Shown here: positions 12,252 to 50,409 of the stretch, one piece after another
How the letters are laid out: each line of letters opens with the position of its first letter
Position numbering within the stretch: the stretch's first letter is position 1
Source: Saccharofermentans sp.
GTDB lineage: Bacteria; Bacillota; Clostridia; Saccharofermentanales; Saccharofermentanaceae
Length of the DNA stretch: 64,000 nucleotides
Assembly: GCA_024685385.1 (NCBI GenBank)
Contig: JAIKVV010000079.1
Coordinates: forward strand, 1 to 64,000
Direction: 5' to 3'
Translations under genes and position numbers: made by a program
The notes under the pieces: model-generated
The model's input: the letters and a program-made list of their open reading frames with translations, nothing else
What the model was told of the DNA's origin: nothing
Databases searched by the model: none

Positions 12252-12261
12252 CTCATTCATA

Positions 12262-12513
12262 AAATGCGATGACAAAGACAGGTCTATCCGCTTATCGCAC
12301 CACAGAGAAGGCAGCCATTGGCTGGAAGCTGCCGTGAATCGAACCGGATAAGATAACACTTTCGAGCAGAGATCTGAACAGTTTAACTCAGTAGGTGATC
12401 CGTCAGGCAGCGTTAATGCCTTCTCAAGAGACCGTGCAAAGAGTACGGTAATTCAGGTGGTACCGCGGACATGTTAAGTTCGTCCTGAGCATGAATTTGC
12501 TCAGGGCGTTTTT
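12262..12513 (+). promoter_or_regulatory. T-box riboswitch controlling aspS
   Basis: Leader that reads the charging state of a tRNA and switches between antitermination and termination. The stem I region holds the AGAGA and GTGAA conserved elements flanking a GGCAGC/GCTGCC distal stem, and TATCCG/CGGATA pair nearer the base. The T-box sequence AGGTGGTACCGCGG is at 12455-12468. The terminator pairs CGTCCTGAGC (12481-12490) with GCTCAGGGCG (12499-12508), followed by T5. The specifier is not certain: GAT (Asp) at 12347 or 12352, or AAC (Asn) at 12355, each followed by A, are candidates. The tRNA-end-binding bulge reads TGGT. Confidence 0.9.
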
Positions 12514-15597: not shown

Positions 15598-16398
15598 ATG
15601 GATATCAAAGATAAGAGGATCGATGACGGCAAGGCATTCGACTGGGGCAGGACTTCAGCCGAATATGCCAGATACCGTGACATATATCCCGAGGAATTCT
15701 ACCGCAAGATCGTGGAACTCGGCCTTTGCATTGACGGACAGAAAGTCTTGGACTTAGGGACGGGTACTGGAGTGTTGCCGCGCAACATGTACCGTTTCGG
15801 AGCAAAGTGGCTTGGAACGGATATCTCTCCCGAACAGATCGAACAGGCAAAGATCCTTTCGGCTAAAGAAGGAATGGATATAGATTACATGGCTGTCTCA
15901 GCCGAAGATATCGATTTTCCCGAAGGAAGCTTTGATGTTGTCACCGCCTGCCAGTGTTTCTGGTATTTTGATCACGAGACTCTCATGCCAAAACTTTCAT
16001 ATCTTCTGAAAGATTCCGGAAAGATACTTGTTCTTTTCATGTCCTGGCTTCCTTCGGAAGACCCAGTCGCCGGGGCTTCGGAGAAAATGGTGCTCAAGTA
16101 TAATCCGAGCTGGACAGGCGGAGGTGAAACAGTCCATCCCATTCATATACCTGATGCCGCATATAAGCTTTTCGATCTTACGGATCACGGTGAATACAGG
16201 GTGGATGTTCCTTTTAGCAGGGAATCCTGGCATGGCAGGATGTTTGCGAGCCGCGGTATAGGAGCTTCTCTTTCCCCGGATGAACTGGCTATGTGGGACA
16301 GGGAACATAAGGAAATGCTGGAGCGAATCTCGCCCGAGAAGTTTAACGTAAAACATTATATGGCATATGCAGTCCTTTCAAAGAAGCAAGGAGTTTAA
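15598..16398 (+). CDS. Class I SAM-dependent methyltransferase
   Basis: 266-residue cytoplasmic protein with a Rossmann-type methyltransferase core. The SAM-binding motif VLDLGTGTGVLPRNM is at about residues 45-60 and the acidic post-strand-2 motif GTDISPEQIEQAK follows. DVVTACQCFWYFDHE corresponds to motif II. The acceptor is unknown; it resembles the UbiE/methyltransferase-11 group. Third gene in the aspS operon, 17 bases after mtaB, with a GAAGGTGAGG ribosome site. Confidence 0.85.
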   Translation: MDIKDKRIDDGKAFDWGRTSAEYARYRDIYPEEFYRKIVELGLCIDGQKVLDLGTGTGVLPRNMYRFGAKWLGTDISPEQIEQAKILSAKEGMDIDYMAVSAEDIDFPEGSFDVVTACQCFWYFDHETLMPKLSYLLKDSGKILVLFMSWLPSEDPVAGASEKMVLKYNPSWTGGGETVHPIHIPDAAYKLFDLTDHGEYRVDVPFSRESWHGRMFASRGIGASLSPDELAMWDREHKEMLERISPEKFNVKHYMAYAVLSKKQGV

Positions 16399-16399
16399 T

Positions 16400-16840
16400 A
16401 TGGATATCAGGGTAATGACCATTGCAGATTACGATAAGGTATGGGATCTTTGGATGTCATGCAAGAACATGGGCTTTAACAATCTGGATGATTCCAGAGA
16501 GGGCATCGGAAAGTATCTTGACCGCAACCCGAAGACAAGCTTTGTTGCCTGTGAAGGCGACCGGATCATTGGAGTCATACTGACCGGACATGACGGAAGG
16601 CGCGGTCTTATCCACCATATGGCCGTTGCAGAAGACATGAGAGGGAAGGGGATCGGCAAAAGCCTTCTTAATGAGGCTCTTTCGGCACTGAAAGCTGAAG
16701 GGATCAATAAAGTCGCATGTCTTGTATTCGGATATAACGAGACGGGGAATGCCTTCTGGGAGAGTCAGGGCTTTACGCTCAGGACGGATATCAACTACCG
16801 TAACAAGGCTTTGACAGAAATGGAGAGGCTCGATACCTGA
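16400..16840 (+). CDS. GNAT family N-acetyltransferase
   Basis: 146 residues with the GNAT fold: the acetyl-CoA loop signature HHMAVAEDMRGKGIGKSLL at about residues 72-90, preceded by an IGVILTGHDG beta strand, and a C-terminal AFWESQGFTLR motif. It resembles YpeA/RimI-like acetyltransferases; the substrate is not readable. ATG 16400, 6 bases after AAGGAG (16388-16393), begins one base after the preceding stop; the in-frame ATG at 16367 would overlap the methyltransferase and is not used. Confidence 0.87.
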   Translation: MDIRVMTIADYDKVWDLWMSCKNMGFNNLDDSREGIGKYLDRNPKTSFVACEGDRIIGVILTGHDGRRGLIHHMAVAEDMRGKGIGKSLLNEALSALKAEGINKVACLVFGYNETGNAFWESQGFTLRTDINYRNKALTEMERLDT

Positions 16841-17199: not shown

Positions 17200-17622
17200 A
17201 TGGGAAGGATAATGGGCATAGATTACGGCATGCGCCGTATCGGTATTGCTTTGTCTGATGTAACTCATCTCATAGCAAAAGGATCTGAGACCATCAATTG
17301 GAATGGCCGTGATATTGATTGGGCTTTAAACCGCATAGGCGAGATAATCAAGGAACAGGATGTCACGGATATCGTATTGGGAAGACCTTTGAGGACTGAC
17401 GGGACGGGATCAGAGACCCAGGAGAAAGTCGAAGGATTTGCAAAGCTGCTGGAAGATACATACGGGCTTCCGATCCACTATATCGACGAAAGATTCACGA
17501 CAGTCATTGCCGCACAATATCTTCATGCGGCCGGCAAGAAAGCCGATAAGCACAAGAAAGTCATCGATCAGGTGGCTGCCGAAGTCTTTTTGCAGGATTA
17601 TCTTGACAGCCACAGGTCCTGA
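17200..17622 (+). CDS. ruvX: Putative Holliday junction resolvase RuvX (YqgF)
   Basis: 140-residue RNase H-fold protein. The family is proposed to act as a Holliday junction resolvase or in pre-16S rRNA processing. Visible motifs are GIDYGMRRIGIALSD with the first catalytic Asp, GRPLRTDGTGS, and the second acidic site YIDERFTTVIA. Six bases after ireB. The ATG at 17212 (GIDYG context) is a possible later start. Confidence 0.92.
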   Translation: MGRIMGIDYGMRRIGIALSDVTHLIAKGSETINWNGRDIDWALNRIGEIIKEQDVTDIVLGRPLRTDGTGSETQEKVEGFAKLLEDTYGLPIHYIDERFTTVIAAQYLHAAGKKADKHKKVIDQVAAEVFLQDYLDSHRS

Positions 17623-17679: not shown

Positions 17680-17725
17680 ATAAAGAGTATGTGAAAGACT
17701 AATACCAAACTGGGAGGTGAATAAT

Positions 17726-18049
17726 ATGGATCAGGAAAATATCATTACTCTTAAAGACGAAGAGACAGGCAAGACCCAGTCTTTCTTCCTTGACGACAAA
17801 TTTCTTCTTAACGGAAACGTCTATGTGTCTCTTATCGTTCTTCCCGAGGGAGCAGAAGAAGATCCCGATTTTGATTTTGACGATCTTCCTGAAGAGATAG
17901 ACCTTGTCATCATGAAGGTTACGACAGGTGAGGACGGCGAGGATCTTCTTTCAACGCTTGATGAGGAAGAAGAGGATATCGTTTTCGATTATTACGACAA
18001 GATCTGTGAGATGTACGACGAAGAAGACGATACTGAAGACGAAGAATGA
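17726..18049 (+). CDS. DUF1292 family protein (YrzB-like)
   Basis: 107-residue, highly acidic cytoplasmic protein. The opening MDQENIITLKDEETGKTQSF and the YVSLIVLP strand are typical of DUF1292. The second half has poly-acidic runs ending in DTEDEE, longer than in many members. Function is unknown; its neighbours are the conserved ireB and ruvX. ATG 17726 follows GGGAGGTG by 6 bases; the GTG at 17717 lies inside the ribosome site and is rejected. Confidence 0.85.
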   Translation: MDQENIITLKDEETGKTQSFFLDDKFLLNGNVYVSLIVLPEGAEEDPDFDFDDLPEEIDLVIMKVTTGEDGEDLLSTLDEEEEDIVFDYYDKICEMYDEEDDTEDEE

Positions 18050-18074
18050 TCCCGGGTTTTCAATATAGAGAATC

Positions 18075-18491
18075 ATGAAAAAGAACAGGACCGACAGAAA
18101 TACCAACCGCAGGAAAGCGGCGGCCATCAAGGCTGACCGCAGAGCCAAGGCAGCGGGCGAGCACATGAAGAGAAACGCCGGCGATGAGCTGGTCGTCATA
18201 AGAGACCCTTATAACAAGAAGGATTTCTATATGATGATGATCGATAACTTCGTGCTTGCGAAGGTCGAGTATGTCGTCATGTATAACTACGTTCCCGATG
18301 ACGGCAACCACAGGAAGCCTGAGCTGGTCATCATGAGGACCACTTTCTCTGATAACGGTGAGCAGTTCTTTTATTCCATCAAAGACAGCGCTGAACTTGA
18401 GAGGGCTTTCGTGTTGTTCATGAGGAGATATTACGGATCCAGCATTCCCGATAAACAGACCAAGAACGGCGTTATGACCGGAGGTCTGTAA
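18075..18491 (+). CDS. Second DUF1292-like protein with a basic N-terminal extension
   Basis: 138 residues. The first 40 are strongly basic (MKKNRTDRNTNRRKAAAIKADRRAK). The rest follows the same strand order as its upstream neighbour: VEYVVMYNYVPD aligns with YVSLIVLP, PELVIMRTTFSDNGEQFF aligns with IDLVIMKVTTGEDGEDLL, then a helix with RAFVLFMRRYY. I infer a diverged DUF1292 duplicate whose basic head could bind RNA or the acidic partner; neither is shown. Its stop overlaps the next ATG (TAATG). Confidence 0.65.
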   Translation: MKKNRTDRNTNRRKAAAIKADRRAKAAGEHMKRNAGDELVVIRDPYNKKDFYMMMIDNFVLAKVEYVVMYNYVPDDGNHRKPELVIMRTTFSDNGEQFFYSIKDSAELERAFVLFMRRYYGSSIPDKQTKNGVMTGGL

Positions 18492-19402
18492 TGATGGCGA
18501 CGGTTAAACGTGTCATATTTTCATGCCTCAAGGCCATCCTTGCCTTGGGGATCTTTGTTTTCTGTTCCGTAATAGTAATGTATCTTTTCAGTCTGTTGAA
18601 TATTGACAGACATACCTATGCAGGGGTCGCGTGTACATGCACTAACATTCTTACGCTCGGCGCTCTGTGGCTTTTCTGGCAGATAGACCGGCAGAAGGAA
18701 GAATATATCTTCTTCAACAAGACCAGACCCGTCAAGGTTATCTGCACCTTGTTCGTGGCTTTGGGGCTTACCGGATTCGTAGTCGTCTATATGCTGGCAG
18801 CCAATTACATTTCGGAATATCTTGAAAGCCTGAAGGAGAATCTTGATCATTACAGGGAAACCATAAACAGGTATACTGAGGTTCCCCAGCAGGAGGTTCC
18901 CTTGTGGGACAGCCTGCTCTACATATTTGCGACCTGCACTCTGGTCCCTCTTTGTGAGGAATTCATGTTTAGGGGAGTATTCATGGGAAAGATGAGGATG
19001 ATCATGCCGGCAGGATTTGCAGTCCTTGTCCAGGCTGTCGTTTTCGGTCTCATGCACGGGATCACCATACACATCGGTTATGCCCTCGTCTGCGGCATAG
19101 TAATGGGAGCCGTATATCTTTATTGCGGCAATCTGTGGATGTCGGTGCTTATCCATGCAGTCTTTAATCTTCTCGGATCGGCACTGCCGAATCTTCTTGC
19201 TTTGGAGCAGTTCGGCATAGCCAGGGATATCCGTACCGAGATCAGTTATGTGCAGACATTGTGCGAATATTTCCTGATGTTCCCCGCAGCCGTTGCCTTT
19301 GTATATCTTTGGTACTCATACAGGAAATCAAAAGAGCAAAAGACTGAAGAACAAACATCAGACGGCCTTTCAGTGTCTGAACAGGAGGCCTCGACATGCT
19401 GA
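18491..19402 (+). CDS. CPBP family intramembrane metalloprotease
   Basis: 303-residue polytopic membrane protein. The CPBP (CaaX protease/bacteriocin-processing, Abi) active-site motifs are present: CEEFMFRGVFMGKMR (EExxxR, about residues 155-169), VFGLMHG (about 190), and LIHAVFNLLG (about 219). Members cleave membrane-embedded substrates, process peptides or confer self-immunity. It overlaps the following large gene by 7 bases, so the two are probably made together and may be functionally linked. Confidence 0.88.
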   Translation: MMATVKRVIFSCLKAILALGIFVFCSVIVMYLFSLLNIDRHTYAGVACTCTNILTLGALWLFWQIDRQKEEYIFFNKTRPVKVICTLFVALGLTGFVVVYMLAANYISEYLESLKENLDHYRETINRYTEVPQQEVPLWDSLLYIFATCTLVPLCEEFMFRGVFMGKMRMIMPAGFAVLVQAVVFGLMHGITIHIGYALVCGIVMGAVYLYCGNLWMSVLIHAVFNLLGSALPNLLALEQFGIARDIRTEISYVQTLCEYFLMFPAAVAFVYLWYSYRKSKEQKTEEQTSDGLSVSEQEASTC

Positions 19403-22400
19403 GATTATCCGAATTCAGACTTGCAGCCACAAAGAGAAGGGGCCTTAGGCTCTTCTTTATGATCACTATTGCGGTCATCCTCATTGCGGCAGTCCTTCTT
19501 ATCTGGATGGGAATATTCGGTTTCCGCGCAGAATACGTAAATATCGGCTTCCGTGATGAATTAAGAGGTGATTCCTTTTCCGGAGCAGGCGTTAACATCG
19601 ATCATGTTCCCAGCATAAACCTGGTAAGGGATGCTTCATTTGAAACGGGATATGAATACATCAATCTGACGGCAACTGATTTTGACGGTAAGAACATCTA
19701 TTTCAAATCCGATTCGGTTACGGGCATCAGCAGCGATCTTGAAAAGATATCAGGCGGCGACATCCGTGTTCTGGGAAGCGATTCCGACGGAGTCATGCAC
19801 CGTAAGTACACAGGGAAAGTCGAATCTTATTATCCCGAATCGATGGCTGAAGTAAACGACATGATGACATTTGTCACCGGCGGTTTCATTTCCGAGATCT
19901 CCGATGTTGAAGTATACGGAAACTGTGTCACCCTGTTATCCGGCGACGGTGTGATATATGCTGACATTACAGGCGCATCGCCCGTAAGGACCGGCGGTGA
20001 GGAGGTTTTGTTCTCCGCTCTGGCTTCGTCAGGTGATATCTGTTACGCGATAACTTCCGACGGCACGATATATGAAGCTTCTGACGGAAGATCCTTTGTT
20101 GCGGTAACAGAAGCAAATGAAAAGATCAGGAACATCTCTTACTGTGTTGCAGTTTCCAACAAACTGCTCATAATGAACAGCGCGGGCGACATCTTTATCT
20201 ACAACAACGGTCTCTTCGAGGTGGATCTGCCTGTAGGCAGCCGCCCTTCCTGCATAGGAAAGATAGGTGATGTGTTTGCTGTTGCGGGCGAGGAGGGAAT
20301 ATTCTATTCCGGGAACGGTTTTGTTTTCCGGAAAGTGTCCGATACCGGAGTGAAAGGTGACGACATAGCTGATGTCGCTTTCTCAGACAAAGTGTTTTAC
20401 ATTGTTTCGAAGTCCGGCGATCTGATCGTCTGCAAAGAGGACGGCATAAAGGAGAGAAAGGCGGCTTTCGATGCGGGATCACAGGTCATCAGGTCAGCCG
20501 TCTGCAGTCAGGAAGGAAAACTCGTAATATCAACCTCTGACAGAGTTGCCATGTCTTTTGATGATGAGAGCGGGGCATATACGATCATTTCCACGGTTGA
20601 TACCGCAGTTGACGACCTTCTTGCATGGTCAGGAGACGGTTTCATATATTCGTCGGGAAGGAAGCTTTACAGAGCATCAGTCCTTTCCGTAATAAAACTC
20701 AGCGAATCGGTGGCTCCCGACAGCATAAGCCGCGGAGATATCTGTTCCGTGATGATTGATCCCGTCATGAACATATCCACTTCTTCATCTGAAGACGACT
20801 GGGTAAGCCTGGGAGAAGAACTTCTCTGGGACATTTACGGAAAGGGAACATCGGTATCCTATGCCACTGAAGCCGTATCGGGCAAGAAGGCTCTTAAACT
20901 TACGGGTTCGGGTGACGGCGTTCATGTTATTTCCCAAAGGCTTCTCGGAACTTCGGAGGAAAACTTCATTCCGGATGAATTCTACCAGTTAAGATTCAGC
21001 GCAAAAAGCTCCGAGGATCTTCAGATCACATGCTGGCTCAAGGGCGAAAAGTTCGGCAGGATATCCTTTACCGGAGATGTTCAGGCAGGTTCGGTCAAGA
21101 CCTTGTCGACTCTTTTTGCAGTTACCGACAGCATGCTCGGCGATGACACGGTCAGGCTTTATATCTCTTTCAGCGGGACGGGGACCGTCTACATAGATGA
21201 TGTATATCTGGGTCCCGACGGCATAAGGGAAAACTATATTCCTCAATATCTTACGGATCGCCTCAGGGATTCTTCTCCTTCAGCCGTCAGGCTCGGAGGT
21301 TTGACGATCGGCGGTGAAGGATACAGCCCCGACATCATGTATTCCCGTTCCCAGGCTTCAAGGACTCAAAAGATCTCGACAGATGAAGGTCAGATCAGGA
21401 TATCCTCCTGTGACTCTCTTGAGGATTGCCTGGATATGGTAGCTTCATCCGGCGCGGATCCCTGGATCGTCATAGGATCCTGTGCCGGCGAGAATGATAT
21501 AGATAAGTTCATGTCTTATATGTGCGGGACTGCCACGGAAGGATTCGGGGCAAGAAGAGTTTCCAACGGAACTGCCATGCCCTGGAGCCGCAGGTTTGAC
21601 CGCATCTACATAGAGATAGCTGATACCGATCTTTGTTTTGCCACTGATTCTGCCAGGGGAGGTTACGTTGATTACATAATCTCCGTCATAGAACAGTCGG
21701 AATATTATCCTGCGATCAAGGAAAAAGTCGTTTTCCTGGACGGCATGAAATATGACGGAGGCATAAGATTTTCGAATGCCGACAGTCATACCCTTAACGT
21801 AAATGCCAGCGACATAAAGGAACTCGGTAATTCCGATCTGTATTACATGGTCAATGTTGCAGCTTTCTATAACCGGATCAACATGGAAGCAGAGCGTTCC
21901 AGAAATGTATCTGACAGCGGACAGTATATTTCTTCACTGTCTCTTGCCGAATCAGCCAGCTGCGCTGAATATACCGCCATGTTCCTTTGCGAAGAGGCGG
22001 GATTCGTCGAGATGCCCATGATGAACATAAGGATAGATTACAGGCCCGCATACTATAAGACGGATAAGATCTTCCTGGACGGGGATAGCGCATTGAACCT
22101 CTTTTCGACCATGAAGATGATGTCTGACGTTACGGGCGGCAATACGTCCGTCATGTATGTCCCTGAACTTTCGGATCCGATGGATGCCTCATCAGGCGAG
22201 AATGCCGGAGATTTTAAGAAGATGTGCGGCGTATTTGCGATCTCAGGGACTTACGGGAACAAGCATCTTGTCATTGCCAACTGTTCAAATGAGATGAAGC
22301 AGTTTGTCATTACCTCGGCGGGCGCGGAACTGTTTAATTCCTATGCGACAAAATACTCCTCGGAAGGCAAGGTCATAAGCAGCGGCAAGTTCGGAAAGCT

Positions 22401-22461
22401 CTTTAACAGACGTGTCCTTAATGCAGGAGAAGTCCTGATAGTCAAGGTCGAAGATAAGTGA
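19396..22461 (+). CDS. Large membrane-anchored extracytoplasmic protein, carbohydrate-enzyme-like
   Basis: 1021 residues: a short basic cytoplasmic head, one membrane segment (about 20-41), then an extracellular body. An NLVRDASFETGYE motif near residue 75 resembles the start of carbohydrate-binding modules. Residues about 165-440 carry repeated DGVIYADI, SDGTIYEA and AGDIFIYNNG units, suggesting a beta-propeller. About 470-610 looks like a CBM4/9-type jelly roll ending TVYIDDVYLGPDG. From about 615 (PSAVRLGGLTIGG) to the C terminus (NRRVLNAGEVLIVKVEDK) the layout recalls GH51-type arabinofuranosidases, but I cannot point to the two catalytic Glu. It may be a degenerate or binding-only derivative. 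It overlaps the CPBP gene and converges on the transglutaminase gene 6 bases away. Confidence 0.7.
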   Translation: MLRLSEFRLAATKRRGLRLFFMITIAVILIAAVLLIWMGIFGFRAEYVNIGFRDELRGDSFSGAGVNIDHVPSINLVRDASFETGYEYINLTATDFDGKNIYFKSDSVTGISSDLEKISGGDIRVLGSDSDGVMHRKYTGKVESYYPESMAEVNDMMTFVTGGFISEISDVEVYGNCVTLLSGDGVIYADITGASPVRTGGEEVLFSALASSGDICYAITSDGTIYEASDGRSFVAVTEANEKIRNISYCVAVSNKLLIMNSAGDIFIYNNGLFEVDLPVGSRPSCIGKIGDVFAVAGEEGIFYSGNGFVFRKVSDTGVKGDDIADVAFSDKVFYIVSKSGDLIVCKEDGIKERKAAFDAGSQVIRSAVCSQEGKLVISTSDRVAMSFDDESGAYTIISTVDTAVDDLLAWSGDGFIYSSGRKLYRASVLSVIKLSESVAPDSISRGDICSVMIDPVMNISTSSSEDDWVSLGEELLWDIYGKGTSVSYATEAVSGKKALKLTGSGDGVHVISQRLLGTSEENFIPDEFYQLRFSAKSSEDLQITCWLKGEKFGRISFTGDVQAGSVKTLSTLFAVTDSMLGDDTVRLYISFSGTGTVYIDDVYLGPDGIRENYIPQYLTDRLRDSSPSAVRLGGLTIGGEGYSPDIMYSRSQASRTQKISTDEGQIRISSCDSLEDCLDMVASSGADPWIVIGSCAGENDIDKFMSYMCGTATEGFGARRVSNGTAMPWSRRFDRIYIEIADTDLCFATDSARGGYVDYIISVIEQSEYYPAIKEKVVFLDGMKYDGGIRFSNADSHTLNVNASDIKELGNSDLYYMVNVAAFYNRINMEAERSRNVSDSGQYISSLSLAESASCAEYTAMFLCEEAGFVEMPMMNIRIDYRPAYYKTDKIFLDGDSALNLFSTMKMMSDVTGGNTSVMYVPELSDPMDASSGENAGDFKKMCGVFAISGTYGNKHLVIANCSNEMKQFVITSAGAELFNSYATKYSSEGKVISSGKFGKLFNRRVLNAGEVLIVKVEDK

Positions 22462-22467
22462 TGCTCA

Positions 22468-23733
22468 TCATTTGTTGCGGTTGATGGCCATATCGTTATC
22501 GGCATCCATGAAATAGAATCCCCATCTGCGTGAATCTGCGCCGACTTCGATCGCGTAGGGTTTTCCGTCAACATCTATGAATGCGCGGTAGTGCTGTCTG
22601 TAACCTGTCCTTGCAACGAGATAAGCATCGTAGCCCAGGTAGTTCATCATCATGACCAGGGCTCCGTTATACTGGAGACACTGTCCGTATTTATATGTGA
22701 AGATAACGTCAGCCGTGGAGTATTTGGCCGAGTATTTGTAGGTCTTGTCATATGTGGAGTTCATGTTGATCCACCAGAGGGTGAAGGCGATCTTCTCTCC
22801 GTCAGTCCAGGAACTGTGGAAGTAATCCGATTCGAACTTCTTGATGGCCTCGATATCCTTTTTTGTGAAGTTGATCTTGCTCGTGGAATACTTCTTGGAT
22901 GAGTCTGTGGTCTTATACATATAGCAGTTTATGGACTTGGTGTTGGAAGGCCCCGGCTTGATGTTCTTGAACATGGCGATGCCGTCAACAAGGGAATAAT
23001 GACGCCTTACGTCTTCGATATAAGGAACTTGCAGATCTGTCTTTGCGATCTTTATCGATGCGCGGCTCTCTCTGGTATTGCCCTGTTCATCCTTGCAGAT
23101 GGCGGTAAGGTAGATCTTGCACTTGCCGTTTGTACCCGTGAGGCCGGGGTAGCAGGAACGTCTTAAACTGGTCGAAGTCTTATCGGAATTGATGAACTTG
23201 ATCAGGGCTCTTTCGCCGTTGTTGTAATAATAAAGCGCATATTTGGTGCAGGATACGGCTTTCCAGCTGATCTCGGCCTTGGCTCCGGAGACGCTGAAGG
23301 ATTTGATCACAGGCTTGGAAGGGGATGTCGTTGCACGGATCTCGGAACTAGCAGTATATATCGTGCTGTTTCCGGATCTGCGGTAGCCCTTGACGCCGAT
23401 AGTGTAAGTGGTTCCGCCCTTAAGGCCGGTGAGTTTGTAATTCAGAGTGGTCCTGTCAACGGTCGCGATGTTCTTAGTCTTGCCGTCCTGAACCGTATAT
23501 ATGACATATCCGCTGGAGCCTGCAAGGGATTCCCAGCAGATCTTGATCTTTGTCTCGTAACTCATATAGCCTTGGGTTATCGCAACCTTGCTCGACTTGA
23601 ATTCGCTGTCCGTGATGGCATCGTCATCGCTGCCTACGGCTCTTACTTGTGAACGAAGGGCAAAAGGGAAGATGAGGCACAGCATCAGGAGCGCAAATAC
23701 CGGGATAAAGAGCTTTTTTATCGATATCTTCAT
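22468..23733 (-). CDS. Secreted FN3-transglutaminase-like protein
   Basis: 421 residues with a Sec signal peptide (MKISIKKLFIPVFALLMLCL, cleavage near residue 32). Two fibronectin type III-like modules follow (about 50-140 and 145-235; WESLAGSSGYVIYTV, YTIGVKGYRRSG, KAEISWKAVSCTKYALYYY). The C-terminal third holds a transglutaminase-like core with a Cys in YGQCLQYNGALV (about 350), a His in QHYRAFIDVDG (about 378) and an acidic residue in AIEVGADSRRW (about 395), fitting a Cys-His-Asp triad. Such proteins occur on Clostridia cell surfaces; substrates are unknown. It is read after the DUF4364 gene, whose 3' end supplies its GGAGGAA ribosome site. Confidence 0.8.
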   Translation of the reverse strand: MKISIKKLFIPVFALLMLCLIFPFALRSQVRAVGSDDDAITDSEFKSSKVAITQGYMSYETKIKICWESLAGSSGYVIYTVQDGKTKNIATVDRTTLNYKLTGLKGGTTYTIGVKGYRRSGNSTIYTASSEIRATTSPSKPVIKSFSVSGAKAEISWKAVSCTKYALYYYNNGERALIKFINSDKTSTSLRRSCYPGLTGTNGKCKIYLTAICKDEQGNTRESRASIKIAKTDLQVPYIEDVRRHYSLVDGIAMFKNIKPGPSNTKSINCYMYKTTDSSKKYSTSKINFTKKDIEAIKKFESDYFHSSWTDGEKIAFTLWWINMNSTYDKTYKYSAKYSTADVIFTYKYGQCLQYNGALVMMMNYLGYDAYLVARTGYRQHYRAFIDVDGKPYAIEVGADSRRWGFYFMDADNDMAINRNK

Positions 23734-30809: not shown

Positions 30810-33800
30810 ATGTTTAAGACAATCAAACATGGATTTGTCGCATTTTTGGCCATAGTCATGGTCTTCTCTTATTGGAGCGTAGCGGTTTGGGCCGGTACGA
30901 ATGACGGATCCAATTATACGATCGAAGTCATCGATTCATATGATGGTGACATCGGCAGTTTCACTAACCTTGCAAACCACGGCAAGTATGTTGGCGGCAC
31001 CATCTACATGGACCAGTGCGGAGAAAACATTGATAATGTGCGCACCAAGATCAGAGCACTGGCAACTCCGCCGGATGAATCTGTCAGTCCTGTTGCTTTC
31101 AATGATGATAACAAGACATTAGTCAGAGGCGCTGAATATGTTCTGACCTATATACAGAATGCCAGAGACGAGAACTATCCCTACTATTATTTTAATTACT
31201 TCTCTGTCCTTCATGTCAAAGCGAATAATCCTTCTTTAGGTGCATTAAACGTTGAGTCGACGGATCCCAATGTCCTGAATGACAAACATGTATGTATGTG
31301 GGAGATGTCAGAGATCAGCAGTTCCACTGACAAGTATTTCCTTATGTATGTCTGTCCGCAGTCCAATCCCAGTTCGAGGATCTCCATTTCCCAGGGAAAT
31401 GACTCAGGTGCGGTCAATGTAGCCTTTGTAAAGGGTATAAAATTGACGGAATTCTTTGTCAAGGAAACCGAATATATCGAGCAGTCTCAGACTTCATCCG
31501 TTGCAGGATACGGAAAGATGAATGTAACTGATCAGAATACCAATGAAGTATATTCCGCGTATGTTATTGATGACGGTTATACATTTAACTACATTCCCGG
31601 TGATACGATGCATTTTGTCATCGACAGGACCAAAACAGACGGCGGTGATACTAATGATACCATGACATATAAGCTGTATAGAGGAAATACGGAGATTCCC
31701 CAGGGTCCCGGATTTACTGTTGTCCCTGATTCTGCCGGCAGCCTTAACGCAAGAGTAACTATTTCAGATGAAGTAGCTCATCAGGGTGATAATCTTGTCT
31801 TAAAGGTCGTTGAAGTTCCCGTAGGCAGCGGTCCTGACTTTAATCCTGACGAAGATCTCAGCAGACCTGTTATCTGCTTGAATATTAATGTTCTTAATTC
31901 AAATCCTGTTAAAACGATCAGTTTTAAGCAAGACAGTTATGAACTTACGACAGTTGAAAATAAGACAAAGGATATGTCCAAGGAAGTAGTCGTATCGCCT
32001 AACGATTATACTGATGTCGTTTTGTATACATCGGATGATCCTTCTGTAGCGACAGTAGACTATAACACAGGTGTTGTGACAGCTGTCGGAGTAGGTGAGA
32101 CTTATATCAGAGCTTTCCCCAAGAAAAACCAGTCACTTATTGCAAGCTGTAAGATCGTTGTAAAGAAGGATCTTCAGACAATACAGATCGATGAGCCGAG
32201 TATGGTCGTACAGGGACGTCAGGCTAATGTCGTATATTCAACAATACCTACGGCAGCTCAGGGTGTTAACCTTCAGGATATCGAATGGACATCAAGCAAC
32301 GATAATGTTCTTAAGGTGATCGGCCCTGATGCCAGCGGTAAAGTATATGTGAAAGCAGTTGCCAATGCTGCTCTGGCTAACGGCAGCAATGAGACCGTTA
32401 TCCTGACCGCTAAGGGAAAGAACGGAGTTTTCACAGAGAAAGCCATTACGGTATACCAAAATACACCTTCATCCGATATAGTCTATGCGGTTGAACTTAA
32501 CGGTACTTATGCAACCAATTTTCAGAAGTCACTTGTTCAGCTTGAAGGTGATTCTTATAAGATCTATGATGGTCAGTCCGTAAAGATCGGAACAACATTT
32601 ACAACGTCTTCTTCTTCTTCAGCTCCTTCTTCTGACTTGCTTGAGTGGAGAGTTACGGTCGAAGGTACGTCAATAGTTAATGCGGAACTCGATGAAGCAG
32701 AGACATATTTTACATACGAATATAACCCTGGCGCTTCCGATAAAGAACTTATCGTTCATTTTAAACAGTTCCAGAATGCCAAGATCCAGCTGATTGGTTA
32801 TGCAATCGGTGAGAATGGCGGCATAGATAATCCTCACGCTGTAAAGACTTTGCGCTTCAATGTAAATAAGAAGACGAGCAACATATATACTTATTATCCC
32901 AGCAACAACAACGGTGTTACATTGGATAATGTATGCGAAGGTAAAGATGACAAAGGAACAGAAGTAGTTCTTAAGTACATACTGGAGGAGAATGTTACCG
33001 AGAATCAGGACCTTATTCATGTGGTTTCTGAAAATCCGTCTGTATTGGAAGTCGCTGATTATTCCAATTTCTCAAGGACAGGAACGATTTACCTTAAAGC
33101 GTATAAGTATGGAACAGTTGACCTTTACCTGTATTCCGTATATGATCTTTCGCTGACTAAACCCGGTAAAAAGCCGACCTATTACGATACATACAGGAAA
33201 ATTACTGTTACTGTCCGGAGAAATATAGATAAGGCCGTGGTCGTACAGGACATTTCAGACAAGGTGTTTAAGAATGCTGCTTATAGTATCAATGACATCA
33301 AAGATGAATTGGCAATAACGTATGACGGCAACGAGCTGGTATATGGGAATAACTATAATCTTGAACTGAGCAACAACACAAATGCCGGTACATGCACCGT
33401 AACGATTAAGGGTTCCGGCGCCTCTTATGGCGGAACAAAAACAGTTTCTTTCAATATTGATCCTTATAGTATCTCCAATACCAGCCAGAGCACCGTTTCA
33501 ACGATTACTGTTAATGGAACGCATACTTATTCAGGTTTGGCTATCAAGCCGGGAGTTACTCTGAATATAAGGAAGTTCAACACCAATCTCAGACAAGACA
33601 ATGATTACTTCCTTGTCTATGACAATAATATCAATGCGGGCAATAATGCAAGCATTATGGCAGTAGGTGTCGGAAACTATACCGGTATTGTCATGACTAA
33701 TTTCACGATAAATCCTGCCAGTGTCGGTGAAATGAACATTACGAATATACCCGATGAATTCTATAACGGTAAAGAACATAAGCCTGACATACCTGCAACA

Positions 33801-35414
33801 AACAAGATGACAGGAGATAAACTCAATATCGGTATCGATTACCATCTTGAATATTTGAACAATGTAAATAAAGGACGGGCAACGATCAAAGTTACAGGTG
33901 AAGGAAATTATACCGGAACCAGAGAGGCTTACTTTGAGATCCGTCAGGCAACTATTGCCGATACTACGATCTCTTCGATCCCGGATCAGACATTCACATT
34001 TGGTGAGGCATTAAGACCTCCCGTAACTGTCACTTTTGACGGAAAGACTCTTGTCGAAGGTACCGATTACCGTATTGATTACAGGGATAACTATAATGCC
34101 GGCACGGCAACGGTTGTATTTATCGGATTGGGTGATTTTGGCGGAGAAACAACAAGAACCTTCAAGATCAACCCTTATAAGCTCACGGCTTCGAATACTA
34201 CTGTTACGGTAGATGAGCTGACCTATGACGGTACTGCCAAGAAACCTAATGTTAATGTGGTTCTCAAGGCAACCGGAAAGAACATCAATCGTAATGATGA
34301 AGGAAACGGTGATTTCAAGGTCACATATTCCAACAATGTCAATTCCGGAAACGGTGCTAAGGTAACCATTACCGGAACAAAGAACTTCACAGGTTCATTT
34401 GATAAGAACTTCACGATCAAGGGATTTGACATTGACAGAGTCGGAGTAGAGGGCATTCCTGAGCAGGCATATACCGGCAAGGCTGTTAAGCCGAAGGTCA
34501 AGCTTACTTTCATGGATAAGACCCTCAAAGAAGGAACAGATTATAAGCTTGCTTATTCTGACAACATCAAGTCCGGTGAGGCTACCATTACCGTTACGGG
34601 TCTCGGCAACTTCTACGGAACTAAGATCGTAAGATTCAGGATCAAGAATGCTCCTGTTTCGTTCAATACGGATCTTGTAAAGGTTGTAGCAGGCGGCGAA
34701 ATGAGGCTTCCTTACAGTGCATCTGAGAGCGTCAGCTTCTCATCTTCCAGCAAGAGCATCTGCACGGTAAATTCTGAAGGTGTTGTATTTGCAAAGATGG
34801 CAGGCTATGCAACGATCACTGCAAAGAGCGCATCCGGCATCAAGGCAACCATTAAGGTACTTGTTCTCTATAAGGATGTTCAGTCTGATGCTGATTTCTG
34901 GTATGAGCCTACTTACTACCTGACCGATAAGGGCGTTGCAAAGGGTTATGACAATCAGACCAACTTCAAGCCCGGTAATGAGTGCTCACGTGCACAGATG
35001 GTTACCTTCCTCTGGAGACTTTCAGGATCACCCGAACCCAAGACTAAGTCTACTACCTTCAAGGATGTAAAGAGCTCTGATTATTTCTACAAGGCAGTCC
35101 TCTGGGCAGTAGAAAAGGGTATCACCACAGGTATATCCAGCAAGAAGTTCGACCCTCAGGGAATCTGTACAAGAGCACAGACCGTTACATTCCTCTGGAG
35201 AATGGCAGGTAAGCCTAATCCTAAGGCTAAGACATCCAAGTTCAAGGATGTAAAGAGTTCCGACTACTTCTATAAAGCAACGATCTGGGCATCCGAGATG
35301 AAGATCGTAGCAGGTTATGATAACGGAACGTTCAAGCCTAAGGGCAAGTGCTTGAGAAGACAGATGGTTACTTTCCTTTATAAGTACGACAAGTTTGTTA
35401 ACGGAAAGGGCTGA
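30810..35414 (+). CDS. Large secreted surface protein: Ig-like and MBG-like repeats, SLH anchor
   Basis: 1534 residues with a signal peptide (about 1-29, FLAIVMVFSYWSVAVWA). An unassigned N-terminal region (30-365) is followed by two Big_2-type Ig domains (about 370-550, with DDPSVATVDYNTGVVTAVGVG), a mid-region (550-810), six MBG-like repeats (about 814-1290; each with an IPDQ or YDGTAKKP-type start, a GTDYRIDYRDNYNAGTATV-like core and an F-I end), another Big_2 domain, and three S-layer-homology domains (about 1353-1530; GYDNQTNFKPGNECSRAQMV, FKDVKSSDYFYKA). SLH domains bind pyruvylated wall polymers, so it is displayed on the cell wall. The repeat region is visibly more A+T-rich than neighbouring genes. 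GGAGGG precedes ATG 30810. Confidence 0.9.
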   Translation: MFKTIKHGFVAFLAIVMVFSYWSVAVWAGTNDGSNYTIEVIDSYDGDIGSFTNLANHGKYVGGTIYMDQCGENIDNVRTKIRALATPPDESVSPVAFNDDNKTLVRGAEYVLTYIQNARDENYPYYYFNYFSVLHVKANNPSLGALNVESTDPNVLNDKHVCMWEMSEISSSTDKYFLMYVCPQSNPSSRISISQGNDSGAVNVAFVKGIKLTEFFVKETEYIEQSQTSSVAGYGKMNVTDQNTNEVYSAYVIDDGYTFNYIPGDTMHFVIDRTKTDGGDTNDTMTYKLYRGNTEIPQGPGFTVVPDSAGSLNARVTISDEVAHQGDNLVLKVVEVPVGSGPDFNPDEDLSRPVICLNINVLNSNPVKTISFKQDSYELTTVENKTKDMSKEVVVSPNDYTDVVLYTSDDPSVATVDYNTGVVTAVGVGETYIRAFPKKNQSLIASCKIVVKKDLQTIQIDEPSMVVQGRQANVVYSTIPTAAQGVNLQDIEWTSSNDNVLKVIGPDASGKVYVKAVANAALANGSNETVILTAKGKNGVFTEKAITVYQNTPSSDIVYAVELNGTYATNFQKSLVQLEGDSYKIYDGQSVKIGTTFTTSSSSSAPSSDLLEWRVTVEGTSIVNAELDEAETYFTYEYNPGASDKELIVHFKQFQNAKIQLIGYAIGENGGIDNPHAVKTLRFNVNKKTSNIYTYYPSNNNGVTLDNVCEGKDDKGTEVVLKYILEENVTENQDLIHVVSENPSVLEVADYSNFSRTGTIYLKAYKYGTVDLYLYSVYDLSLTKPGKKPTYYDTYRKITVTVRRNIDKAVVVQDISDKVFKNAAYSINDIKDELAITYDGNELVYGNNYNLELSNNTNAGTCTVTIKGSGASYGGTKTVSFNIDPYSISNTSQSTVSTITVNGTHTYSGLAIKPGVTLNIRKFNTNLRQDNDYFLVYDNNINAGNNASIMAVGVGNYTGIVMTNFTINPASVGEMNITNIPDEFYNGKEHKPDIPATNKMTGDKLNIGIDYHLEYLNNVNKGRATIKVTGEGNYTGTREAYFEIRQATIADTTISSIPDQTFTFGEALRPPVTVTFDGKTLVEGTDYRIDYRDNYNAGTATVVFIGLGDFGGETTRTFKINPYKLTASNTTVTVDELTYDGTAKKPNVNVVLKATGKNINRNDEGNGDFKVTYSNNVNSGNGAKVTITGTKNFTGSFDKNFTIKGFDIDRVGVEGIPEQAYTGKAVKPKVKLTFMDKTLKEGTDYKLAYSDNIKSGEATITVTGLGNFYGTKIVRFRIKNAPVSFNTDLVKVVAGGEMRLPYSASESVSFSSSSKSICTVNSEGVVFAKMAGYATITAKSASGIKATIKVLVLYKDVQSDADFWYEPTYYLTDKGVAKGYDNQTNFKPGNECSRAQMVTFLWRLSGSPEPKTKSTTFKDVKSSDYFYKAVLWAVEKGITTGISSKKFDPQGICTRAQTVTFLWRMAGKPNPKAKTSKFKDVKSSDYFYKATIWASEMKIVAGYDNGTFKPKGKCLRRQMVTFLYKYDKFVNGKG

Positions 35415-48372: not shown

Positions 48373-50409
48373 ATGAAATCATTACATGTCAGAGCCATCT
48401 CGTTCTTAATTGCGGTCTTTATCGCCGTATCGGGAATTGCTTTTTTTGCTGACAAGTTAAATGCTGCCACGGAAGAGACCCTGCTGATCGGATCTGATTC
48501 CGAAAATCCCTCCGCGCCAAGTCTCATCAATGTCTTCGAGTCTTTGGCTGGAGGCAATGTGCGTAATATAAACTCATTTCAAAAAGGAAGCAATCCTCCG
48601 TCTTCAGCCAAAGCCATAGACGTCGGCAGGACGGGTTCCGTCGTAGCCTGGGCAAAAGAAGTCACAGTTAATTATATGAAAATGTATGACATCTATTGGT
48701 ATTCCAAAGCATCCAAGGTATATCTTAACGAAAGATGCACCGGCATGTTTATCGGATGCAAATTCATGACGACCTGCGATCTGTCCGGTCTTGATTCATC
48801 CCGTGTAACAAAGATGGGCAATATGTTCTATCAGTGTGCAAACCTCAAAAAGATAAAGGGTCTGGATAAGTTCAACACATCGAATGTTACCAGCATGGCA
48901 GGCATGTTCAGTGGATGCAAAAAACTTACTGATTTCAGTTATGCACATTTCAATACCAAGAAAGTAACGAATTTTAATTCGATGTTTCAATATGTTCCTT
49001 TCAATGAGAAAAATGTCGATATCTCGGGATACGATACATCGTCGGCAACGAATTTGGCCGGCATGTTTATGCATTGTGAGAACCTTAAGACGCTGAAACT
49101 GGGAGAAAAGTTTACGACTTCCAATGTTATTAAAATGGTCGGCATGTTCAGCTACAGCCCCAATCTTAAGACGATCTATGTCAGAAAAAATTTCGATGTC
49201 AGTAAATTGGAACCAGATTACATCACTGTTATGTTTGACGGCTGCAGGAGTCTTGTCGGAGGTGCAGGCACTTCTTATGCTGCGATCGATGACGCACATA
49301 TGGATGATGAAGATTACGAAGAACATAAGACCCCCTTATATGCCAGGATAGATTCGGCATCGAAACCGGGCTATTTCACTAAATATGTTTCTGCGACCAA
49401 CACTCCTACGGCAACTGTTACCGTCACGGCCAAGCCCTCTAATAAGCCTACGGTCACGACAAAGCCTACGGTCACGACCAAACCAACGACCAAGCCTACT
49501 GTCACAACCAAACCAACGACCAAGCCTACGGTTACGACAAAGCCTACGACCAAACCTACGGTTACGACTAAACCCACGGTTAAGCCTACGGTTTCTGCTA
49601 CGCCGAGTCCTGCATCACCTTCCGGCGGACCCGTCGTAAAGCCCGGGATCGATCTCAGTTTGAAGAGCACTGTTGTCTGCGGCAAGTCTGTCAAGGCTTC
49701 CGTTAAGGTGACACCTTCATCCGCGACTGTTTCATTCAGCTCATCCGACAAAAAGATCGCAACGGTTGATTCAGCAGGCAATGTCAAGGGCATTATGGCA
49801 GGTAAGGTTACCATTACGGCAAAGACCTCTGCCGGTGTCAAGGCTTCACGCACGGTTCAAGTCCTCTATAAGGACGTTACCGACAGCGGCGAGTTCTGGT
49901 ATGAGCCGACAAATGATCTTACGAACAGAGGCGTAGTCAAAGGGTATGACAATCAGACCAGATTCAAGCCTGCCAAAAATTGCACAAGGGCACAGATGGT
50001 AACGTTTATCTGGAGGATGCAGGGAAGTCCTGAACCCAAGTCATCCAAATGCAGTTTCACCGATGTAAAGAGATCAGATTATTTCTATAAGGCCTGTATC
50101 TGGGGAAATGAGAATGGGATAGTTGAAGGATATAGTGACGGCAGATTCGGACCTAAGATCGTTTGCGCCCGCCGGCACGCCGTCACATTCCTTTGGAGAC
50201 TGGCAGGGAAACCTGATCCGTCCTCATCGAAAAATAAGTTCAATGACGTCAAGCGGAGCAACTATTTCTACAAGGCAACTCTCTGGGCATCGGAAAAGAA
50301 TATCCTGGCAGGTTATGATGACGGTACCTTCCGTCCGAATGTTGCTTGCCTGAGACGGCAGATGGTAACATTCCTATACAAATACAACAAGTTCATCAAC
50401 AAAAAATGA
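48373..50409 (+). CDS. Secreted surface protein: BspA-like repeats, Thr-Pro linker, SLH anchor
   Basis: 678 residues with a signal peptide (about 1-31). Residues about 115-290 hold BspA-type (DUF285) leucine-rich-like repeats of some 24 residues (MGNMFYQCANLKKI, NTSNVTSMAGMFSGCKKL, TSNVIKMVGMFSYSPNL). A linker of about 57 residues built from KPTVTTKPT units (352-409) follows, then a Big_2-like domain (about 432-495) and three S-layer-homology domains (about 498-675). The Big_2-SLH tail closely parallels that of the protein at 30.8-35.4 kb. BspA repeats often mediate adhesion in other bacteria; the ligand here is unknown. AAGGAG precedes ATG 48373; no clear promoter is seen. Confidence 0.9.
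   Translation: MKSLHVRAISFLIAVFIAVSGIAFFADKLNAATEETLLIGSDSENPSAPSLINVFESLAGGNVRNINSFQKGSNPPSSAKAIDVGRTGSVVAWAKEVTVNYMKMYDIYWYSKASKVYLNERCTGMFIGCKFMTTCDLSGLDSSRVTKMGNMFYQCANLKKIKGLDKFNTSNVTSMAGMFSGCKKLTDFSYAHFNTKKVTNFNSMFQYVPFNEKNVDISGYDTSSATNLAGMFMHCENLKTLKLGEKFTTSNVIKMVGMFSYSPNLKTIYVRKNFDVSKLEPDYITVMFDGCRSLVGGAGTSYAAIDDAHMDDEDYEEHKTPLYARIDSASKPGYFTKYVSATNTPTATVTVTAKPSNKPTVTTKPTVTTKPTTKPTVTTKPTTKPTVTTKPTTKPTVTTKPTVKPTVSATPSPASPSGGPVVKPGIDLSLKSTVVCGKSVKASVKVTPSSATVSFSSSDKKIATVDSAGNVKGIMAGKVTITAKTSAGVKASRTVQVLYKDVTDSGEFWYEPTNDLTNRGVVKGYDNQTRFKPAKNCTRAQMVTFIWRMQGSPEPKSSKCSFTDVKRSDYFYKACIWGNENGIVEGYSDGRFGPKIVCARRHAVTFLWRLAGKPDPSSSKNKFNDVKRSNYFYKATLWASEKNILAGYDDGTFRPNVACLRRQMVTFLYKYNKFINKK
49429..49600 (+). 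repeat. Tandem repeats encoding the Thr-Pro linker
   Basis: Imperfect tandem copies of 12- and 18-base units based on AAGCCTACGGTCACGACC, encoding KPTVTT and KPTT units. Silent differences among copies (CCTACG, CCAACG, CCCACG) show that the array is not freshly expanded. Copy number is likely to vary among strains. Confidence 0.85.

Follow-up and report, generated by a model that had tools for sequence, protein, structure and literature searches.

A CPBP intramembrane protease gene overlapping the gene of a membrane-anchored protein with a GH51-like barrel in an order of gut and rumen Clostridia

The locus and its gene order

The window, that is, the whole stretch of 64,000 nucleotides analysed, carries on its forward strand a gene for a CPBP intramembrane protease and, immediately after it, the gene for a large membrane-anchored protein (Table 1). 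Both open reading frames proposed in the initial annotation were recovered at the same coordinates, together with their overlap. The large frame is not a chance one, since full-length relatives are found across the order, and its reality is strengthened by a confident AlphaFold2 model. An AGGAGG stretch lies shortly 5' of its ATG, at position 19396. An overlap of the two genes was counted at 71 of 78 loci, a figure which leans high, the most upstream start having been used for the count.

Table 1. Features of the locus. Positions are those of the window; residues are numbered along the large protein.
Feature	Position	Strand	Basis
RuvX-like gene (presumptive name)	17200..17622	+	conserved cluster
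Two DUF1292 genes, directly 5' of the protease gene	17717..18491	+	PF06949; conserved block
CPBP (CAAX/Abi-type) intramembrane protease, 303 aa	18491..19402	+	ORF; PF02517
AGGAGG, ribosome-binding-like site for the large protein, within the protease ORF	19383..19388	+	sequence
Overlap of the protease and large-protein genes, 7 bases	19396..19402	+
Large membrane-anchored protein, 1021 aa	19396..22461	+	ORF; relatives across the order
Basic N-terminal tail and predicted transmembrane helix, residues 1-46	19396..19533	+	AlphaFold2 helix, residues 5-46
GxGxN ... NLVRDASFE, residues 63-90 (putative first barrel strand and jelly-roll start)	19582..19665	+	conservation
Beta-propeller, residues 147-431	19834..20688	+	VIA-align (Z 21.3, rmsd 3.4, 272 aligned); profile matches
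CBM4/9-like jelly roll, residues 440-607	20713..21216	+	CBM_4_9 in relatives; long-GH51 alignment
GH51-like barrel, residues 608-913	21217..22134	+	Foldseek, VIA-align, hhalign
E740-I-A-D743-T744, at the place of GH51 GIGNE	21613..21627	+	hhalign
Q843, likely place of the nucleophile Glu (GQYI vs GEYA)	21922..21924	+	low-confidence part of hhalign
C-terminal beta sandwich, residues 914-1021	22135..22458	+	GH51 structures align to the model end (residue 417 of 417)

The two genes belong to a conserved block, ordered as mtaB, ireB, ruvX, one or two DUF1292 genes, protease and large protein, where mtaB, ireB and ruvX are names that we presume. In most relatives mtaB and ireB are close neighbours, unlike in the window, where they are separated by what we take to be a methyltransferase-like and an acetyltransferase-like gene (15598-16840, + strand). 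Further upstream, a T-box leader (12260-12490, + strand) stands 5' of an ORF of 588 aa, presumably an aspartyl-tRNA synthetase. The genes 3' of the large protein vary among relatives. In the window, a convergent gene (22468-23733, - strand) ends a few bases from the large-protein gene; its secreted-looking product matches the transglutaminase-like family PF01841 over the cut-off and fn3 just under it, and in L010 and L011, the two nearest relatives, ORFs of similar size and the same orientation are found at this place.

The protease gene lies upstream of the large-protein gene in 78 of the 80 named loci, the two misses (L147 and L158) running off their contigs. It is likewise present in 39 of 40 loci picked across the order, and in 33 of them no gene is inserted, so that the protease is a strongly conserved neighbour. 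At six of the 40 loci (L051, L052, L056, L059, L060 and L061, all from one family), a gene that we take to be AsnA-like is located between the two, and in far families the protease is preceded by a presumably lysyl-transferase-like gene. At one locus (L073, genome G003) the large protein occurs without the protease, only 68 bases being found between DUF1292 and the large-protein gene; the sister genome G004 has the protease.

Domains and ancestry of the large protein

The large protein, searched alone, gave no Pfam or NCBIfam match and, as a single sequence, no meaningful PDB match. The AlphaFold2 model of the whole chain, obtained from 79 sequences, has a mean pLDDT of 87.0 and a pTM of 0.80. 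The propeller-like region, the carbohydrate-binding jelly roll and the GH51-like region recognized in the initial annotation are all supported. When the profile of the large protein was compared with the PDB, mainly propellers were retrieved, with weak antibody-domain rows below them. CBM_4_9 (PF02018) is matched by 13 of 29 relatives, the best with an E value of 6.1e-6, the window protein itself giving no match, and the jelly roll aligns with that of long GH51 enzymes with an E value of 3.4e-9.

Residues 605-1021, modelled alone, reached a pLDDT of 88.5, and all of the Foldseek ranks 1 to 44 obtained with this model are arabinofuranosidases. Its VIA-align comparison with the Thermotoga maritima arabinofuranosidase gave a Z of 21.2 and an rmsd of 3.7 over 362 aligned residues, with 8% identity; GH79 structures fall within about 1 Z of the arabinofuranosidases. 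When profiles were first compared on a narrower basis, with short GH51s from the same family, the match was weak (E 0.03). Broader sets on both sides produced a significant match: by using hhalign, a profile of 81 sequences from four families (residues 440-1021) was aligned to 33 long GH51s with an E value of 3.7e-14, spanning the jelly roll and the N-terminal half of the barrel. As controls, five other families of the same locus gave E values of at least 0.15, GH39 one of 0.38 and GH30 one of 0.0038. A GH51-type fold and ancestry of the large protein is therefore almost certain.

The closest architecture is that of the long GH51s with CBM4/9 (L228-L230; MgGH51, PDB 6zps), in which jelly roll, barrel and C-terminal sandwich follow each other in the same order, and which have in common with the large protein an ELVRNRSFE-like start and a G.LR..NG..PW block. 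The resemblance of residues 63-90 to ELVRNRSFE is a short and weak profile match (E 0.0076, 13 columns), and is by itself suggestive only. In long GH51s a strand and ELVRNRSFE are followed by the jelly roll, whereas in the large protein GxGxN and NLVRDASFE are followed first by the propeller. The latter thus appears, from this order of motifs, to have been inserted just after the SFE motif, inside the former enzyme. The large protein further differs from long GH51s in lacking the acid/base Glu, in having Gln at the nucleophile place and in its membrane anchor. Within the literature searched, a fused pseudo-glycosidase with a built-in propeller is considered a new part. An ordinary GH51 enzyme with a GNE motif is encoded elsewhere in the same genome (G000:C74:12666-13232).

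No other large part of the protein is as well conserved as the barrel (mean pairwise column identity 0.46, vs 0.28 for the propeller), and all 79 aligned sequences share R632, W690, R721, E740, D743, D782 and Y786. The initial annotation had noted a lack of obvious catalytic residues, and in the alignment registers obtained both expected glutamates are indeed absent from the window protein. T744 occupies the place of the acid/base Glu, which is missing in 76 of the 79 relatives, window protein included; E is found there in three, the others having S, T, D or other residues. E740 was considered for this role, since its distance from PW, eleven residues, is that seen in short GH51s, and was rejected, profile alignments placing D743-T744 there. 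GQYI (residues 842-845) falls on GEYA in both alignments, within the low-confidence part of each; position 843 is E in 76 of 79 sequences, the exceptions, with Q, being the window protein and the two sequences most closely related to it. Both models have a strand starting at residue 843 or very near it, while the GH51 nucleophile lies near a strand end, which makes the register at 843 uncertain.

The barrel might nevertheless be catalytically active through a displaced pair of residues, such as D743 as the acid and E843 as the nucleophile in most relatives. E740 and D743 are invariant, E843 is nearly so, and three relatives (L132, L162 and L166) have Glu at both 744 and 843. Residue 744, on the other hand, varies freely, the window protein combines Thr 744 with Gln 843, and the strand start at 843 leaves the register itself uncertain; we regard such an activity as very improbable. 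Judging from the aligned residues, the large protein is very probably not an active arabinofuranosidase. The retention of a pocket that lacks the catalytic pair is suggestive of binding, and the protein is rather likely to bind a glycan.

At the N-terminus, the modelled helix of residues 5-46, together with the basic end, would make the large protein a type II membrane protein. A GIFGxRxEL-like edge at residues 39-47 is conserved in the genus. As a membrane-edge cleavage motif it was promising in the genus and failed in other families, and no membrane-proximal motif conserved across the whole order was found. A cytosolic anti-sigma domain, as expected of an RsgI-type sugar sensor, is absent, only about 20 residues preceding the hydrophobic stretch. 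At the other end, the AlphaFold2 model finishes with two strands (residues 1003-1008 and 1013-1018), and the myxosortase-type combination of C-terminal motif, helix and basic end was not found.

Distribution across the order

Within the same family, 112 of 115 genomes have a relative of the large protein, and none of the 62 best assemblies lacks one; among genomes of the order with a completeness of 90 or more, the count is 103 of 113. The protein is single-copy in most genomes; two copies are present in G019 (contamination 7). Named relatives are labelled Saccharofermentans, Mageeibacillus, Ruminococcaceae or Clostridiales, and come mostly from rumen and gut. A profile search of 293 genomes of the class retrieved the members from the order itself and did not find the barrel outside it: almost only the propeller part was matched elsewhere, with the exception of two short weak matches, to columns 499-606 and 921-986. 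A scan of viral contigs returned no relative of the large protein.

The large protein is missing in 3 of the 115 family genomes and 10 of the 113 order genomes, 13 in all. Four of these also lack a RuvX match, which makes an assembly gap plausible for them. Among the nine with RuvX, eight regions were examined, G140 being left out with its RuvX at a contig edge. In G145 the large protein turned out to be present, cut by the contig end, and in G139 and G141 the contigs of the locus end before its position can be judged. G135 has neither DUF1292 nor protease nor large protein at the locus. In G136, G115, G116 and G117 the protease stands at the locus without the large protein and is followed by other genes; in G136 (locus L210), the place of the large protein is taken by a 367-aa ORF, presumably a transposase, which is possibly the cause of the loss.

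GH51 C-domain matches were lacking in 6 of 38 family genomes, all six of which have the large protein, and this speaks against a tie to arabinan feeding. As the protein occurs in almost every genome of the order, also where the GH51 C-domain gives no match, a role in the envelope of the cell itself is more likely than one tied to a particular plant sugar. Within this one order of gut and rumen Clostridia the protein is found nearly everywhere, as a rule in a single copy, a distribution pointing to a lineage-wide envelope function that is unnamed in the literature searched; among the matches listed there, no paper dealt with the family of the large protein or with a CPBP-GH51 pair.

The protease and its relation to the large protein

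The protease matches PF02517 with 69.3 bits (Pfam cut-off 22.4), and contains all of the family motifs, EExxxR, FxxxH and HxxxN, as EEFMFR (residues 156-161), FGLMH (185-189) and HAVFN (222-226). E156, E157, F160, R161, F185, H189, H222, F225 and N226 are identical in 79 of 79 aligned copies from the locus, G186 is kept in 99 per cent of them, and the catalytic motifs are intact in 39 of 39 proteases from the wider set of loci. Tested against myxosortase-type models, the protein stayed below the cut-offs (30.8 of 75 bits for MrtJ, 24.7 of 130 for MrtS and 20.8 of 100 for Mrt_core). The genome of the window, G000, has ten PF02517 places, one of them within an open frame of 736 aa, and assigning one of ten by neighbourhood is risky. 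By its scores the locus protease is an ortholog group, since it reaches 113-168 bits in genomes devoid of the large protein, whereas none of the other CPBP proteins fetched from G000 scores above 86 bits.

Rates of change were compared in a mirror-tree test over 54 of the 80 named loci. Given mtaB, the large protein correlates with RuvX at a partial r of 0.695 and with the protease at 0.602; the signal is unspecific, RuvX performing at least as well as the protease.

The protease could be a mere operon neighbour with an older task of its own, the overlap reflecting tight packing and the large protein being simply the last member of the block. The four genomes which keep the protease alone, with other genes behind it, fit this reading, and weigh most heavily against the idea that the pair is strictly dedicated; the persistence of the large protein without the protease in G003, the six loci with a gene between the two and the risk attached to ten CPBP places in one genome agree with it as well. 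The association of the pair at 39 of 40 diverse loci, mostly without an insert, contrasts with the varying genes downstream, and makes simple neighbourhood rather unlikely as the whole explanation.

CPBP proteins with a particular surface partner have been described before. In Staphylococcus aureus, SpdC (LyrA), a member of the CPBP family, is reported to form a complex with the membrane-bound SagB (PMC10482373, PMC12214887, PMC10581084), and its function does not need the protease residues (PMC10482373). Both SpdC-SagB and the pair in the window consist of a multi-pass CPBP-family protein and an N-terminally anchored partner of glycosidase type. SagB differs from the large protein in being an active glucosaminidase and in its fold. 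Among myxosortase-type proteases, MrtJ is reported to have one JDVT-CTERM protein as its sole target, and MrtX to be paired with MYXO-CTERM proteins (PMC11980579). These pairs likewise place a CPBP protease beside, or in a pair with, a dedicated surface protein; their targets have a C-terminal sorting tail, while the large protein has an N-terminal anchor. MroQ is similar in that a CPBP protease reportedly removes the N-terminal part of a membrane-associated substrate, and dissimilar in that this substrate is a small peptide. The initial annotation had proposed that a membrane protease cutting or releasing its own polysaccharide-binding partner would be a new surface-remodelling pair; a CPBP protein with one surface partner does have precedents, in SpdC-SagB and in MrtJ with its JDVT-CTERM protein. 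With these precedents, the differing tails and the scores below the myxosortase cut-offs, we regard the layout as a further form of pairings already described.

By analogy with SpdC, the protease might be a non-cutting membrane scaffold, which positions the large protein as SpdC does SagB. The layout shared with SpdC-SagB, in which a CPBP-family partner accompanies a glycosidase-like protein anchored by one N-terminal helix, and the failure to find a cleavage motif common to the whole order are what such a role would lead one to expect. It appears distinctly unlikely, as the catalytic residues are invariant at the locus and in the wider set, whereas SpdC reportedly requires none (PMC10482373).

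Our prediction, to which we assign an even chance, is that the large protein is a membrane-anchored, glycan-binding pseudo-glycosidase, with an anchor that the CPBP protease either acts on or holds. Its ancestor would be a long GH51 alpha-L-arabinofuranosidase equipped with a CBM4/9 jelly roll, in which a beta-propeller came to lie between the SFE motif and the remaining jelly roll. With the acid/base Glu lost and the likely nucleophile replaced by Gln in this lineage, the protein would bind rather than cut. Encoded beside an intact CPBP protease at the end of the same operon, it would be worked on at its membrane helix, and either be clipped free or be held in a complex. Direct action of the protease on the large protein is possible, at somewhat less than an even chance, and action by cutting, taken separately, is doubtful: the invariant active site favours cutting, and the lack of an order-wide cleavage motif, together with the cases in which the two genes are separated, favours caution. 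A bolder version, improbable as it stands, is an order-wide housekeeping module, in which the protease would have one dedicated, N-terminally anchored client, a propeller-bearing pseudo-arabinofuranosidase reading a wall glycan, with sugar occupancy deciding on clipping. For the question of whether CPBP proteases of Gram-positive bacteria cleave a dedicated client or retain it, the pair is a clean test case.

Elsewhere in the window, two large surface proteins are encoded on the + strand, at 30810-35414 and 48373-50409, with three SLH repeats and Big_2 domains, and one of them with DUF285 repeats.
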